Assembly (NCBI GenBank): GCA_002897695.1
Contig: BDTG01000039.1
Coordinates: 16,817-80,816, forward strand
Reading direction: 5' to 3'
DNA: 64,000 nucleotides
Origin: a bacterium BMS3Abin14
GTDB taxonomy: Bacteria; BMS3Abin14
The position numbers and the translations under genes are program-made. Shown in pieces: positions 12,790 to 57,148 of this stretch. A model generated the notes under the pieces. That model did no database searches. It was given only the letters and a program-made list of their open reading frames with translations, and was not told the origin of the DNA. Within the stretch, counting starts at the first letter, position 1; each line of letters starts with the position of its first letter.

Positions 12790-13368
12790 CTAAACCTTGG
12801 GTTCTTCCCCCAGCTTCATCCCCAATTCGAAGGCTGCCTTCATAACCTCTTTACTATCCTTAATCTCCCCTGCTTCATACGCCGATCCATATACGGTCCC
12901 GGCAATCCTTACGCCAAGGTAGGCTGATATATCCTGGAACATGCGCAGGGCGTTGACAGCGCCGGAAGTGAAGGGATCAGAATCGGCGTAGGTAAGGAGT
13001 ATCCCGAATTCTTTGCCCCTGAAAACATTTTTTTCTCCACCACCCACTGCGTAGATCCTGTCAATCACCATTTTGATCTGGGCGGTAACGGAAAACCAGT
13101 AAATGGGACTGGCGAAAACTATGGAGTCGGCCTCCCTGAACTGACCGTAAATCCCCTGCATGTCGTCGTCGACGACGCATCCCTGTGCGTGGGCACCCTG
13201 GCAATGGTTGCACCCCGTGCAGGGGCTTATATCCATACCGTGAAGGTACAGGGTCCGGACGTCAGCTCCGGATTTTTCGGCTCCTTCCGCCAGTTGTTGG
13301 GCGAGTACCGCGCTGTTGCCGGTCTTTCGGGGGCTTCCCAGGAGAATGAGCACCTGTTTTGCAGCCAT
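12790..13368 (-). CDS. NAD(P)H-dependent FMN reductase / flavodoxin-fold protein with Cys motif
   Basis: 192 residues. The FMN phosphate loop is GSPRKTGNSAVLAQQL near the N-terminus, and VFASPIYWFSVTAQIKMVIDR is the isoalloxazine-side segment. SPCTGCNHCQG around residue 50 gives C-x2-C-x2-C, typical of the iron-sulfur flavoprotein/NADPH:FMN reductase branch found in anaerobes. The role is electron transfer or quinone-type reduction, with the acceptor unknown. A 40-bp copy of the Cys-motif region reappears at 18207-18246. Confidence 0.85.
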   Translation of the reverse strand: MAAKQVLILLGSPRKTGNSAVLAQQLAEGAEKSGADVRTLYLHGMDISPCTGCNHCQGAHAQGCVVDDDMQGIYGQFREADSIVFASPIYWFSVTAQIKMVIDRIYAVGGGEKNVFRGKEFGILLTYADSDPFTSGAVNALRMFQDISAYLGVRIAGTVYGSAYEAGEIKDSKEVMKAAFELGMKLGEEPKV

Positions 13369-13386: not shown

Positions 13387-13442
13387 GAAAATGACACTTT
13401 TCGCTTTCCGTTAAGTAAATAGCCATGAATGGACATTTACGA
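13387..13442 (+). repeat. partial multi-hairpin repeat (family A), inverted orientation
   Basis: Carries AATGACACTTTTCGCTTTCC and a degraded AAAAGCCATGAATGGA...TTACGACC end, matching the copy at 56858-56985. It lies directly upstream of the flavodoxin-like reductase start. Confidence 0.7.
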
Positions 13443-13516
13443 CCCTGTCCTGGCTGATGGTTTCGAAAACAGGGCATACTTTATTACATTTTCGATGGAA
13501 AGGTAAGGAGGGGAAA

Positions 13517-13738: not shown

Positions 13739-13912
13739 ATGGGAGATTTGCCGATCCAGATGCTGCCCGCAGTGCCCCATATTATTCTCGGAGTCTTCAG
13801 CCTTGCCATTCCCAATCTTGTTTTTTGGTTGTTGGTGATTGTTCTTTTCTTCCTGGCAGCTTGGGCCCGTCTGCCCAAAGCCTTTGAACCGGGTCCAGAG
13901 AAGGAGACGTGA
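13739..13912 (+). CDS. small single-span membrane protein of the cytochrome b module
   Basis: 57 residues, too short for most gene callers. AGGGAGG stands about nine bases before ATG 13739. The protein has a hydrophobic helix (GVFSLAIPNLVFWLLVIVLF about residues 18-37) and a charged C-terminal tail. It ends directly before the cytochrome b start (TGA at 13910-13912, next start GTG 13913 or ATG 13916), so translation is probably coupled. I do not recognise a family; the position suggests a small subunit of the complex. Confidence 0.65.
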   Translation: MGDLPIQMLPAVPHIILGVFSLAIPNLVFWLLVIVLFFLAAWARLPKAFEPGPEKET

Positions 13913-13915
13913 GTG

Positions 13916-14527
13916 ATGGCGCACCGGATAAACTTGACGGCGAAAACTCGGCAGGCGCTAACGGACAGTATCTCTCTCGAAGACGCCCTTCCTACCAAGA
14001 TGCCCGTTTATGTCGACTCCATGGCGTATCTCTTCGGCGTATCGGCGCTTTCGGCTTTGGGTATTCTGATCTTTAGCGGTCTGACTTTAAGCATCTTCGG
14101 ACCGACCTGGTACCACATCTCCGGGACAGGGCACTTTGTGCACTCCCTCCATTTCTGGGCTGTGCAGGTCTTTTTCCTGGCTCTCGTGCTCCACCTGCTC
14201 ACAAAATATACATTGGCCGCATGGCGGGACGGACGCTGGAAGACCTGGATGGTGGGCATTCTGGCCTTTGGAATCGCGGTTTTCACCGGTTTGACCGGCT
14301 TTCTGATTCAGACCAACTTCGATGCCCAGTGGATCGCCGTACAGGCGAAAGACGCCATGAACGCCCTGGGAGTGGGTGCCTTTTTCAACACCATGAATAC
14401 CGGCCAGGTGCTGACCTTGCACGTGGTTTTCCTCCCGGCACTGCTTACGGCATTGGTGCTTGTCCATCTTTTCCTGATTCGCCGCGAGGGCCCGGTCAAA
14501 CCATTTGGAGCGGGGAGGGATAGCTGA
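13916..14527 (+). CDS. b6-type cytochrome b (four-helix N-terminal domain)
   Basis: 203 residues from ATG 13916 (a GTG at 13913 is also possible). Four core helices carry two bis-histidine heme pairs: H79/H93 (H-x13-H) and H169/H184 (H-x14-H). The 14-residue spacing in the second pair is that of cytochrome b6 rather than mitochondrial-type cytochrome b. GFLIQTNFDAQWIAVQA replaces the usual Qo-side helix. The product should be an inner-membrane quinol-oxidising cytochrome working with the next gene, whose start overlaps this stop. No Rieske protein is encoded nearby. Confidence 0.85.
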   Translation: MAHRINLTAKTRQALTDSISLEDALPTKMPVYVDSMAYLFGVSALSALGILIFSGLTLSIFGPTWYHISGTGHFVHSLHFWAVQVFFLALVLHLLTKYTLAAWRDGRWKTWMVGILAFGIAVFTGLTGFLIQTNFDAQWIAVQAKDAMNALGVGAFFNTMNTGQVLTLHVVFLPALLTALVLVHLFLIRREGPVKPFGAGRDS

Positions 14528-15480
14528 TGAGCCGCAAATCAGAGGCGTATTTTCGCGACGTTCCCATGAAACCGTATGACTTGCTGCGGGAAGGGCTTGT
14601 GGTGTTTTTGTTTCTGGCGGGAATAATCTTCGTGCTGGCCGCTGTCTTCGGTTCGCCGGATTACCCCCCTGTGAACAGTCATGATGTGGCGAAATACCAA
14701 CCCGTCGCCTATCTCAAGACAACCGCCAATATCCTGGCCGGTAACTCCGGCATCCAGGACTACGGTCCGCCGTATACGTCGGATACCGCCAATGTGCAGC
14801 AGGTTCTGTCTCTTGCTCCGGCGGCCTGGTTCGGGGTGCGCTATCCGCTCGATGCTTCCAGGGATTTTGTCCTCAAGCCCCTGGAGCGGGTTGCCGCCAT
14901 GGACAAGGGGGTGGCCCGCGCCCTCAAGGCCTATGAGGCTGTCGGCCACGACCGGCAACAGACCTGGTTGAAGGCCTACCTTGCCGCCCTTGATAAGGCC
15001 GCCGTAAACAATGGCGAGGTGCAGGTACCCGCCGGCGACTACGGCCCGGTCCCCGTTTTGATGAACGGCATGCTCGGACTGGGACGGGCGGGCCTGTTGG
15101 AAGGCGCCCTGGATAGCAGTGCCTGGACCCCTTTCAACCTGGATTTCACCAGGTCGCTGTTGTTCTTTTCGGAGGATGTGGACGGTAGTGTGGCGGACAA
15201 TCTGAATATGTCGGGCGAGCAGATGGGTATCTCCCATGAGACGGGCCCTTTCCCAGGGGCATGGTGGCTTATGCCTTACGCAGCCCTCTACCAGATACCG
15301 TTCATGTCCGCATCTCCCAACGCCGATCTGCTGGCGGGCGTGATCATGATTGGACTTTTCCTGGTGCTGCTTTTCATACCCTTTCTGCCGGTCTTAAACC
15401 GCGTGCCTTTTTGGGTGAAAATATACAGGATTATCTGGCGCGATTGGTATTCCCGTTCCGGCGAAGACAAGTCGGCGTAG
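14527..15480 (+). CDS. subunit IV-like membrane protein with a large periplasmic insertion and no PEWY motif
   Basis: 317 residues. The start (MKPYDLLREGLVVFLFLAGI, one helix) and end (DLLAGVIMIGLFLVLLFIPFLPVL) resemble helices of cytochrome b C-terminal/subunit IV proteins. Between them is a soluble, presumably periplasmic, domain of about 210 residues. Where canonical proteins have PEWY, this one has PGAWWLMPY (about residues 242-250), so the proton-accepting glutamate is absent. There is no CxxCH, so no heme c. It overlaps cytochrome b by one base. The homology to subunit IV is my inference from context and the flanking helices. Confidence 0.6.
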   Translation: MSRKSEAYFRDVPMKPYDLLREGLVVFLFLAGIIFVLAAVFGSPDYPPVNSHDVAKYQPVAYLKTTANILAGNSGIQDYGPPYTSDTANVQQVLSLAPAAWFGVRYPLDASRDFVLKPLERVAAMDKGVARALKAYEAVGHDRQQTWLKAYLAALDKAAVNNGEVQVPAGDYGPVPVLMNGMLGLGRAGLLEGALDSSAWTPFNLDFTRSLLFFSEDVDGSVADNLNMSGEQMGISHETGPFPGAWWLMPYAALYQIPFMSASPNADLLAGVIMIGLFLVLLFIPFLPVLNRVPFWVKIYRIIWRDWYSRSGEDKSA

Positions 15481-15706
15481 CCGCCTGAAAGGCATGTTCA
15501 AAAAAAATCTGCTCTTCAGCAAATTCATACCAAAGTGCTCCGAACCACCCCGGCTTTTTTTCGGCCTGGTATTTGCCAATCTGAAAAACCGGAGATATAC
15601 TCTAACCAGACACCTCCAGGGAATATCCAGTGCGTAGAGTAAAAAACCATTCATGGACTTTTTACGACACTAAACATAAACCGGTACAAGTAGAGGAGAT
15701 GTATCC

Positions 15707-16885
15707 ATGTACAAAAGGCAGATAAAGAAAAGGATTTACTGGATGGGAGCCGTTGATTGGGACAGGCGCCTTTTTGATTCTCTCATTCCGCTTCCAGACG
15801 GCACTACGTACAATGCCTACCTGGTTGAAGGGAGCGAAAAAACCGCTTTACTGGACACAGTCGATCTGTCCATGGTCGATGAATTGATGGCACAACTGGA
15901 CGGGGTCCCCAAAATCGACTTTATCATCTCTCATCATGCCGAGCAGGATCATTCCGGGGCCATCCCCCGGGTTCTCGACAGGTTTCCAGAAGCAACAGTG
16001 GTCGCGACCCCCAAAGCCAGGGGCATGCTCATTGATCTGCTAAGAATTCCCGAAAACAAATTTGTCACGGTGAAGGACGGCGAGACGCTATCGCTCGGCG
16101 ACAAGACCCTCAGGTTTATTCACACGCCCTGGGTACACTGGCCGGAAACCATGGTGACCTACCTGGAAGAAGATCGCATCCTTTTCAGTTGTGATTTTTA
16201 TGGGTCCCATATCGCGACCACCGATCTTTTCGTGAACGACCAAGGACGTGTGTACGAAGCCGCAAAACGCTACTTTGCCGAGATAATGATGCCATTTCGG
16301 AATGTGATCGCAAAGAATGTCGAAAAACTCAAAGGATACGACATTCAAATGATCGCCCCTAGCCACGGACAGATCTATGACCGTCCGGCCTGGATCATGG
16401 ATGCTTACCTGGAGTGGACTCTTGGAACGCCCAAAAACATGGTTGTGCTCCCCTATGTTTCCATGCATGCCAGTACCAGGCTTATGGTGGATTATATGGT
16501 GTCCTCTCTGGTGAAAAAAGGGGTGAGTGTTGAGCCGTTTAACCTGACGGTGACCGATATCGGAAAGCTCGCCATGGCGCTGATCGATGGGGGAACGATT
16601 GTCCTTGGAACGCCCACGGTCCTGGCCGGCCCTCATCCTCTGGTCGCGTACTGCGCCTTTCTGGCCAATGCCTTGCGGCCCAAGGCTCAATTTCTTTCAA
16701 TTGTCGGTTCGTATGGATGGGGTGGCAAAACCGTGGAAACGCTTGCGGGGATGATACCCAATCTCAAGGTCGAGGTGTTGGACCCTGTATTGTGTAAAGG
16801 GGTTCCATCGGAAAATGATTTCAGGGCGATGGATAAACTGGCTGACGCCATTGCAAAAAAACACACGCAGCACGGATTCAGATAA
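15707..16885 (+). CDS. flavodiiron protein (FprA-type A-type flavoprotein)
   Basis: 392 residues. The beta-lactamase-like diiron domain has all ligand blocks: HHAEQDHSG (about residue 76), HTPWVHWPETM, FSCDFYGSH and PSHGQIYD. The C-terminal flavodoxin domain begins VVLPYVSMHASTRLMVDYM (about residue 247), with the FMN loop, and contains GSYGWGGKTVE. The enzyme reduces O2 to water or NO to N2O in anaerobes, drawing electrons from rubredoxin or an NADH oxidoreductase. GAGGAGATG precedes the start. It stands alone 226 bases after the cytochrome b module and may share its role in oxygen protection. Confidence 0.95.
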   Translation: MYKRQIKKRIYWMGAVDWDRRLFDSLIPLPDGTTYNAYLVEGSEKTALLDTVDLSMVDELMAQLDGVPKIDFIISHHAEQDHSGAIPRVLDRFPEATVVATPKARGMLIDLLRIPENKFVTVKDGETLSLGDKTLRFIHTPWVHWPETMVTYLEEDRILFSCDFYGSHIATTDLFVNDQGRVYEAAKRYFAEIMMPFRNVIAKNVEKLKGYDIQMIAPSHGQIYDRPAWIMDAYLEWTLGTPKNMVVLPYVSMHASTRLMVDYMVSSLVKKGVSVEPFNLTVTDIGKLAMALIDGGTIVLGTPTVLAGPHPLVAYCAFLANALRPKAQFLSIVGSYGWGGKTVETLAGMIPNLKVEVLDPVLCKGVPSENDFRAMDKLADAIAKKHTQHGFR

Positions 16886-17568: not shown

Positions 17569-17778
17569 CTTGGACGCCCCTTAGTGGGCGCATTGATGAT
17601 TTCTTACGAAATCATCAATTATGACAGGGTCGTAAAAAGTCCGTTTATGGCTTTTTACTCCACGGAAAGCGAAAAACGTCGTTTTCACTTTCCTCACAAA
17701 TCAACAACTTGCCCTGCAAGTCATTGATTTGGACGCCCTTCAATGGGCGCATTGATGATTTCTTGCGAAATCATCAAT
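17569..17778 (-). repeat. multi-hairpin repeat family A: a half copy and a full copy in tandem
   Basis: 17629-17778 is a full unit of about 150 bp: GTCGTAAAAAGTCC...TATGGCTTTTTACTCC, a linker, AACAACTTGCCCTGCAAGTC, then GACGCCCTTCAATGGGCGC and TTGATGATTTC-ttgc-GAAATCATCAA. 17569-17620 repeats only the last two hairpins. Other copies lie at 39818-39965, 56858-56985 and 21895-22020; strand given is arbitrary. Confidence 0.85.
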
Positions 17779-18206: not shown

Positions 18207-18246
18207 TAATGGTTGCATCCTGTGCAGGGGCTTATATTCATACCGT
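18207..18246 (-). pseudogene. fragment of a flavodoxin-like reductase gene (Cys-motif region)
   Basis: On the minus strand this encodes GMNISPCTGCNHY, nearly the GMDISPCTGCNHC segment of the gene at 12790-13368; the DNA matches over about 37 of 40 bases with 13207-13246. Nothing else of the gene is present. It is a decayed or transferred fragment beside the 3' end of the aldehyde ferredoxin oxidoreductase gene. Confidence 0.6.
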
Positions 18247-21710: not shown

Positions 21711-22305
21711 AACTGCCTTTCTCTAAAAACTTCTGCCTCTATGCACGGCAAGGTTTAATGGAGCATCCCATATGCCCATGGAAACACCGAAGCCCATGTG
21801 CAAACACATCATCTTTTTTTATCTTGTTTAATTTTTGTGTCGCCTGACGAAGGGACCCCAGTTGGGACCAACTTCAAACTTCACCTCTAAAACCTTGACG
21901 ACTTCGCAAAAAGTCACCAACGCGCCCGTTAGAGGGCGCACAAATCAATGATTTGTCACGCAAGTCATTGATTTGAGGGACAAGTCGTTGTTTTGTGAGA
22001 AAAGGAAAAATGACACTTTTAATGCTGGCTGCTCCGCCCTTCGACCAAGCTCAGGACAGGCATCATTCACGGTGGAAACCATAAATCTTCCTCTCTGGCC
22101 CATCGAAGCTTTATGCAAGGGAGGCTGGGGGGAGAAAATCGGGGTGAGGGGGGAAGAGAGGATAATACTTCCTTGGGTAAACAGGGGAACTCTTTGTGCC
22201 CTGACAGGTCGCCGCTCAATGGTCGTTTTTAAAGGCCGCCATTCATCCTCCAGGCTTACCTGGTGGATGAATGACGTATGTAACAAAGGATGGCCAAGAG
22301 GGTTG
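21711..22305. repeat. intergenic region with inverted family A repeat and other repeats
   Basis: 21895-22020 is a family A unit in inverted orientation (ACGCGCCCGTTAGAGGGCGC, AAATCAATGATTTG, TGACACTTTT). 22035-22065 carries a CGCCCTTCGACCAAGCTCAGG-type repeat found also near 48180, 50040 and 52474. No gene seen. Confidence 0.6.
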
Positions 22306-39757: not shown

Positions 39758-39817
39758 CATTCCATGAGAGGAGATCATACTTGGAAATACTGCCAAAGCC
39801 TATCTATTTTTATGGAA

Positions 39818-39965
39818 TCGTAAAAAGGCCATTCGTGGCTTTTTACTCAGCGGAAGGCGGAAAGTGTCATTTTCGCTTTCCTTACAAATCAATGACTTGC
39901 TTTGCAAATCTTTGATTTGGGCGCCCTTCCCGGGCGCATTGATGATTTATTACGAAGTCATCAAT
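39818..39965 (-). repeat. multi-hairpin repeat family A, full copy
   Basis: Same module order as 17629-17778: TCGTAAAAAGGCCATTCGTGG / CTTTTTACTC, AAGTGTCATTTTCGCTTTCC, AATGACTTGC/TTTGCAAATC, GGGCGCCCTTCCCGGGCGC, GATTTATTACGAAGTCATC. Its right end supplies the TGATGA stop of the ferritin-like gene. Confidence 0.85.
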
Positions 39966-40434
39966 TTTCAATCTCCTGATTCTCCCAGCCCGGTCTGCTT
40001 TTTATCAGATCGAGTTCATTTGAAAGTATCTCGTAGTGTCCTCGCTCCATATCGGCGAGGTACTCGAGAAAGCCACGTGCCCTGGCATCGTCTGCCTTAC
40101 CGGCCATCTCATCGTACACCTTTGCGGCATTTTTTTCGTTTTCCATCGCCAACAGGAGGATATTCTCCATGGACATCCTGGCCACATCCGGATCGACTCC
40201 TTCGCGGTTTTCGGACTTCGCCTCGCCTGGTTCCATGCCCGTCTGGGCCCAGTAAAGCCGGCTCAGGGTGTTCCGGTGTTCCATTTCGTCATCGGCCAGG
40301 CCCAGAAGCCTCCTTCGGACAAGCGGGTTTCTTACCTTTTGCGCCGCGGCCAGGTAGAAATCTCTTCCTTCCATCTCGGCTTTAATGGCGTTCAGGATTG
40401 TCTCTCCGGTTTTTACGTTTACAGCCATCGGCAT
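39961..40434 (-). CDS. ferritin-like / rubrerythrin-type diiron protein
   Basis: 157 residues in a four-helix bundle. KAEMEGRDFYLAAAQ (helix 1, E), DDEMEHRNTL (E-x2-H), MENEKNAAKVYDEM and DMERGHYEIL (E-x2-H) provide the expected carboxylate/His iron ligands. There is no rubredoxin CxxC domain. Such proteins take part in peroxide reduction or iron handling in anaerobes. The stop codon lies at the edge of a family A repeat. Confidence 0.85.
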   Translation of the reverse strand: MPMAVNVKTGETILNAIKAEMEGRDFYLAAAQKVRNPLVRRRLLGLADDEMEHRNTLSRLYWAQTGMEPGEAKSENREGVDPDVARMSMENILLLAMENEKNAAKVYDEMAGKADDARARGFLEYLADMERGHYEILSNELDLIKSRPGWENQEIEN

Positions 40435-56621: not shown

Positions 56622-57148
56622 AGACAGGCGAGGGGCTAGAGGCTATGGGTAATAGCACAGTCCAGAACCTGAATCTTTTTAGCCGCCAGACTGGAGCCCG
56701 GGGCGAGATCGCGTCATCCGGTCCCTATTCGCGATGACATCTTTTCTCCGTTGGACATTGGACCTTGGACGTTGGACGTTTTTATAGCCCCTCGCCCAAG
56801 TTGCTGCTCGTCCTTGTTGCCCTGGATGAAAGTGAACTTTGATCCAGGGTGTAGGATGATGACTTTGAAAAAAGTCATCGACGCGCCCACTGAGGGGCGC
56901 CCAAATCAAAGATTTGTGAGGAAAGTGAAAATGACACTTTTCGCTTTCCGTGGAGTAAAAAGCCATCAATGGACTTTTTACGCCCCTATCAACGGAGAAA
57001 TCAGCCGATTTCAAGGAAATCCCGCTCCTGTCAGGGAGCGGTTGGGTGAGGGACGGAATCGTTCCGGTGTTTGCCTTATCCCCTTCATCCACTCCACCTG
57101 CCACGTCGAAGTCACCGAAATGTGTGACGAAGACGGGTCCCTGTTGAA
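56548..57148. repeat. spacer with family A repeat, heptad array and CACCTGCCACGTCGAAG repeat
   Basis: 56751-56778 is TTGGACA-TTGGACC-TTGGACG-TTGGACG. 56858-56985 is a family A unit in inverted orientation. 57081-57150 is a 70-bp repeat also at 60783-60852. No gene seen in between. Confidence 0.7.

Follow-up and report, generated by a model that had tools for sequence, protein, structure and literature searches.

Cytochrome bc complexes are defined by cytochrome b, a Rieske protein and a c-type cytochrome, and a Qo motif is present in all of them (review, PMC9162462). At the Qi site, Arg207 of cytochrome b6, Asp20 of subunit IV and the Lys251/Asp252 pair of bc1 have been described as proton paths (PMC9162462; PMC5001787). 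The window analysed here (the whole stretch of 64,000 nucleotides) encodes a trio of proteins, consisting of a small single-span subunit, a b6-type cytochrome b and a third protein, P3. As read from its sequences, this trio belongs by descent to the cytochrome b/b6 superfamily. It resembles cytochrome b6f in its split cytochrome b, the b6-type spacing of the heme-ligating histidines, the equivalents of Arg207 and of subunit IV Asp20, helices E and F, and the small single-span subunit. In contrast to cytochrome b6f, it comprises no Rieske protein, cytochrome f, PEWY motif, cd1 PW-x-Q motif or helix G, it carries an insert of ~190 aa in the ef loop, and the window protein has no Cys at the heme c(n) position. 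Because the Rieske protein, the c-type cytochrome and the Qo motif, which are the three defining features, are missing, we set the trio apart from b6f complexes.

With cytochrome bc1/bcc, the trio shares two predicted b-hemes, and the Lys251/Asp252 pair of the Qi site appears as Lys/Arg21-Glu22, whereas the Rieske protein, cytochrome c1 and the Qo motif are missing from the trio and its b-type core is split. In transmembrane ferric reductases and NADPH oxidases, two b-hemes pass electrons across the membrane to an outer acceptor. This likeness is an analogy only, as no sequence relation to these enzymes was found, the trio has no flavin domain, and its donor side resembles a quinone site.

In the open-licence literature, we found neither a description of a Rieske-less cytochrome b6 module nor a described system that matches the trio, in agreement with the suggestion of an earlier note on this DNA that the locus might encode an undescribed membrane complex. 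On the basis of these sequence comparisons, the trio represents a branch of the cytochrome b/b6 superfamily that has not been described before. If the trio transfers electrons along a single branch, as proposed below, it would show that the Qi half of the b6f core is able to function by itself. A widespread homologue that has the inner site and both hemes but none of the Qo and Rieske features would represent a naturally occurring half of the Q-cycle engine, and would allow one to ask directly how a b-heme branch functions without bifurcation. The trio would also be a new respiratory component in anaerobes and acidophiles, organisms in which electron transport chains are little understood.

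Cytochrome b core, P3 and the quinone sites

The three open reading frames at 13739-15480 were confirmed as the earlier note had described them, including the one-base overlap of the P3 start with the cytochrome b stop and the small 57-residue single-span frame that ends at the cytochrome b start (Table 1). The start of cytochrome b was assigned to the ATG at 13916, with the GTG at 13913 as a possible alternative. A search of the host genome (2.28 Mb in 49 contigs, rated 100% complete) revealed no second cytochrome b of the b6 type, and the small protein had no match in Pfam or NCBIfam.

Table 1. Positions of the trio genes and of the features discussed in the text, numbered from the first letter of the window
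Feature	Position	Strand	Evidence
Small subunit, 57 aa, one predicted TM helix, N-out/C-in	13739..13912	+	directly 5′ of the cytochrome b gene
b6-type cytochrome b, 203 aa, four helices	13916..14527	+	PF13631, PDB b6 match
Predicted heme ligand H79, cytochrome b	14150..14152	+	invariant, 20 homologues
Predicted heme ligand H93, cytochrome b	14192..14194	+	invariant, 20 homologues
cd1 region, TGFLIQTNFDAQW in place of b6 TGYSLPWDQVGYW; PW-x-Q Qo signature lost	14294..14332	+	1q90 alignment, family alignment
Predicted heme ligand H169, cytochrome b	14420..14422	+	invariant, 20 homologues
Predicted heme ligand H184, cytochrome b, 15 after H169 (b6-type spacing)	14465..14467	+	invariant, 20 homologues
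R189 of cytochrome b at the b6 Arg207 position, Qi side	14480..14482	+	invariant; role of Arg207, PMC9162462
P3, 317 aa, subunit IV-like helices E and F, large ef-loop insert, no helix G	14527..15480	+	hhalign with insert cut; two helices in nearly all members
Qi-side D18 and R21-E22 of P3 at the places of subunit IV Asp20 and bc1 Lys251/Asp252	14578..14592	+	insert-cut alignment; PMC5001787
Insert domain of P3, about 194 aa, mainly helical, predicted extracytoplasmic, no conserved Cys/His	14665..15246	+	charge distribution, domain model, family alignment
PGAWW at the PEWY position, P3 residues 243-247	15253..15267	+	P243 and W247 invariant; aligned to PEWY
Helix F of P3	15322..15384	+	AF2 model of P3, helix prediction
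Right breakpoint	15539..15540	.	sister species G001 matches the window only from 15539 on; G001 genome without the trio

The cytochrome b matched Pfam PF13631 (E=2.6e-10), and its family profile matched the cytochrome b6 of PDB entry 1q90_B (E=2.4e-16). The histidine pairs H79/H93 and H169/H184, with spacings of 14 and 15, were unchanged in 20 homologues, as expected of a cytochrome b core whose four heme-ligating histidines sit on helices B and D. These results bear out the b6-type assignment made previously, and the alignments show that the core carries two predicted bis-His b-heme sites across the membrane. R189 lies five residues past a heme ligand, like b6 Arg207, and QTN(F/W) occupies the place of the cd1-helix PWDQ in the cytochrome b family of the trio. 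The top NCBIfam match of the cytochrome b was ExtP (NF040969; E=2.5e-12), a b-type cytochrome of selenite/tellurite reduction operons, but the score of 47.1 was below the membership cut-off of 290 bits. In addition, no ext genes were noticed near the trio, and ExtP has no known P3-like partner.

P3 had no match in Pfam, NCBIfam or PDB in sequence and profile searches. Nearly all members of its family have two strong hydrophobic helices, near both ends of the protein. When residues about 53-235 were removed by hand from the P3 family alignment, and the remainder was compared by hhalign with a profile built from typical cytochrome b C-terminal/subunit IV domains of other genomes, the match had a probability of 93.4% (E=2.4e-7; a single comparison), and the reversed control had a probability of 0.3%. 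Either end alone aligned at the right place with a probability of about 58%. Because the full-length comparison was weak (36%) and misaligned beyond helix E, the match between P3 and subunit IV rests on removal of the insert. In the insert-cut alignment, PGAWW fell on PEWY and YQIP on the next helix, and the proline-rich segment that ends helix F was paired with the corresponding segment of the profile. Helix G was absent from P3 by helix prediction. Since both ends align once the insert is cut out, P3 is best read as a subunit IV with helices E and F, no helix G and a large ef-loop domain of ~190 residues. This agrees with the previous proposal that the ends of P3 look like subunit IV helices. 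The PGAWW at the PEWY position was also confirmed; it varies within the family to PGPWW, PAAWW and PGQxW, and P243, W247, Y251, Y255 and Q256 are invariant at and around this site. As to whether a profile would identify P3 as a known subunit IV variant, P3 is a probable subunit IV homologue, but no described variant with such an insert was found, and the insert has no counterpart in the matched subunit IV/cytochrome b C-terminal domains. The AF2 model of P3 was weak (pLDDT 70, pTM 0.60).

The soluble domain that had been proposed for the centre of P3 is present, although its size was ~185-195 residues (about residues 47-240) rather than 210. The domain is conserved across the family, and its invariant residues include Y79, G80, P82, Y83, Q91, G103, D113, W147, G173, P174 and G189. 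By charge distribution, both termini of P3 are inside and its insert is outside, and the insert is predicted to lie on the periplasmic side, at the usual docking place of the Rieske protein. A model of the domain had an overall pLDDT of 75.5 and a pTM of 0.73, with blocks of 82-97 between model residues 61 and 140, and neither the insert nor the P3 fold had a match in the PDB or in a viral library (Foldseek, VIA). Conservation of Cys and His columns in the P3 family never exceeded about half of the sequences. For this reason the insert is unlikely to bind an iron-sulfur cluster or heme, and a redox cofactor in the insert was rejected.

The residues that form the Qi-site proton paths (b6 Arg207, subunit IV Asp20 and bc1 Lys251/Asp252) all have equivalents in the trio. 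D18 and E22 of P3 are invariant, and position 21 is always K or R. In contrast, both Qo signatures, PEWY and cd1 PW-x-Q, are missing from the trio family. Our main argument is that, because the inner-site residues are kept and the Qo motifs are lost, the inner half would work and the outer half would have been rebuilt. At the level of these residues, an inner (N-side) Qi-type quinone site is shown to be kept with its proton-path residues, and the outer (P-side) site to be altered. We consider it probable that the three proteins assemble into a single membrane complex, complete in itself, that descends from the cytochrome b6/subunit IV core.

Distribution and gene neighbours

A search of other genomes found a homologous trio in another phylum (47/54/49% identity), and the occurrence of homologous trios in other phyla, at these identities or higher, indicates that the arrangement is not due to chance. 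A scan of 84,980 species genomes yielded 20 trio loci, and the total came to about two dozen loci with the same gene order in several phyla, so that the question raised earlier of whether the trio is conserved can be answered in the affirmative. By record label, the carriers include Actinomycetes, Thermoleophilia, Cellulomonas, Spirochaetaceae, Acidithiobacillus, Acidihalobacter, Bacillota and Athalassotoga. Almost every locus with sufficient sequence has a short frame with one predicted helix, then cytochrome b and then P3, with stop and start adjacent or overlapping; no small frame was placed in locus L042.

The occurrence of the trio is sporadic. It was present in 1 of 12 genomes in the window's own phylum, 3 of 4 in the phylum of G123, 2 of 103 in the Athalassotoga phylum and 2 of 31 in the Acidithiobacillus order. 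Well-supported groups in the cytochrome b and P3 trees agree with each other and cross phyla, and no relatives were found among viral contigs and plasmids. One contig (L038), binned as Candidatus Micrarchaeum, carries a trio close to that of the Thermotogota MAG L036; it is probably mis-binned. The copy in Athalassotoga saccharophila (L050, 9397-10685) is broken, with a frame change dividing cytochrome b and the central part of P3 lost, and represents either a pseudogene or assembly errors.

Clustering of the neighbouring genes revealed no fourth gene common to many loci within about 10 kb, and the surroundings of the trio vary between carriers. The only other recurrent cluster directly adjacent to the trio was a UbiE/MenG-type methyltransferase gene, which directly follows it in L036 and L050 and was seen in a single lineage. 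In the window, a flavodiiron-type (A-type flavoprotein) gene lies directly downstream of the trio at 15707-16885. This gene was rejected as a partner, since it has no homologue beside other trios and is kept in the trio-less sister species. The clustering likewise found no flavodiiron or c-type cytochrome gene co-conserved with the trio, a pairing that the earlier note had singled out for checking.

The claim that no Rieske protein, cytochrome c or CxxCH lies nearby held in the window, where none of the 28 ORFs between 4 and 26 kb contained CxxCH; nor was CxxCH found in ORFs near any trio examined. The Rieske domain (PF00355) is absent from 4 of 4 carriers with a stated completeness of at least 94% (G123, G194, G195 and the whole 2.28 Mb host genome, G000). 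Rieske domain proteins, counted with their types mixed, occurred in 15 of the 18 other carriers, and none was seen beside the trio. The description of the trio as Rieske-less stands for the loci themselves and for the near-complete carriers, but some carriers have Rieske-domain proteins elsewhere. The cytochrome c assembly domain (PF01578) is missing in the Thermotogota carriers G199 and G212, the former of which has an intact trio and no Rieske domain. In the host genome, six PF01578 matches elsewhere indicate that c-type cytochromes are made. UbiA-type prenyltransferases were found in 12 of 12 genomes tested (10 carriers and two sister genomes), which fits the presence of quinones but is no proof of it.

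Proposed electron transfer

On balance, we lean towards the reading that the trio is a horizontally spread membrane oxidoreductase, in which a b6/subunit IV core would have received a new domain in exchange for the Rieske-dependent Qo half and would carry electrons along a single branch, without bifurcation, between the inner quinone site and a substrate on the outer side. The insert domain would cap the outer site and take the position of the Rieske protein, and the small subunit would supply a seventh helix in place of helix G. Electrons would pass via hemes bL and bH, in either direction, between a small diffusible outer reactant and a quinone at the inner site. The outer reactant might be a quinol/quinone, or a small oxidant or reductant. 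Because no dedicated partner gene accompanies the trio, quinol/quinone exchange or a generic small molecule is favoured over a protein partner. We infer that the three proteins form a complex, that its heme sites are occupied, that transfer is non-bifurcating and that the seventh helix comes from the small subunit. The earlier note had concluded that a normal Q cycle could not run and that a different acceptor or a one-electron quinol route was implied. Such routes are possible, but a two-electron quinone-to-quinone route and a quinone reductase fit equally.

If the trio were instead a quinone reductase driven by a donor, a periplasmic redox protein or enzyme encoded elsewhere would dock on the insert, and electrons would flow via bL and bH to the inner quinone, as in the b-type subunits of formate dehydrogenase and hydrogenase. 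The conservation and predicted extracytoplasmic location of the insert and the retained inner quinone-site residues are consistent with this, but no conserved neighbour of the trio qualifies as a candidate partner and the surroundings differ among carriers. Furthermore, the pI of the insert varies between 4.3 and 9.9 across members, arguing against a single docking partner, and we consider a donor of this kind unlikely. Electrons might also be exported, with quinol oxidised at the inner site and heme bL reducing a small one-electron acceptor outside, for example acid-soluble Fe(III), as ferric reductases do. Such a route would not need a partner gene. Acidithiobacillus and Acidihalobacter are acidophiles, and the names of several other carriers, as given in the record titles, suggest an origin in acid mines, acid caves or peat. 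However, this is a habitat association read from record names, only two genomes of the Acidithiobacillus order have the trio, and P3 has no conserved iron-binding residues, all of which make electron export improbable. Since many carriers come from acidic places by record name, we regard Fe(III) or a similar acid-soluble acceptor as a lead only.

A non-catalytic relic of cytochrome b6f, either decayed or serving in assembly only, would account for the broken copy in A. saccharophila. The other complete copies are open, however, with heme and inner-site residues strongly conserved across phyla, and gain or loss affects the three genes together. We therefore judge a relic to be very improbable.

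Flanks of the window locus

The genome of sister species G001 contains no P3 and no detectable cytochrome b of the trio kind, and its match to the window begins 59 bases past the P3 stop, with unrelated DNA to the left. Downstream, G001 shares the flavodiiron, carbonic anhydrase and oxidoreductase genes at 94-98% identity. The three genes were thus gained, or lost, together.

Copies of a dispersed repeat family (about 165-210 bases) lie in the window at 13387-13468, 15633-15671, 17570-17778, 21896-21984, 39801-39966 and 56855-56991, and the first two of these copies flank the trio on both sides. The family has about 100 matches in G001 and dozens in G007, G008 and G011. In addition, a 39-base stretch of the FMN reductase gene (13203-13241) recurs with 92% identity at 18208-18246, next to where the aldehyde ferredoxin oxidoreductase gene ends. 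G001 carries its FMN reductase gene beyond this oxidoreductase gene, on the other side, an order that suggests a local rearrangement.
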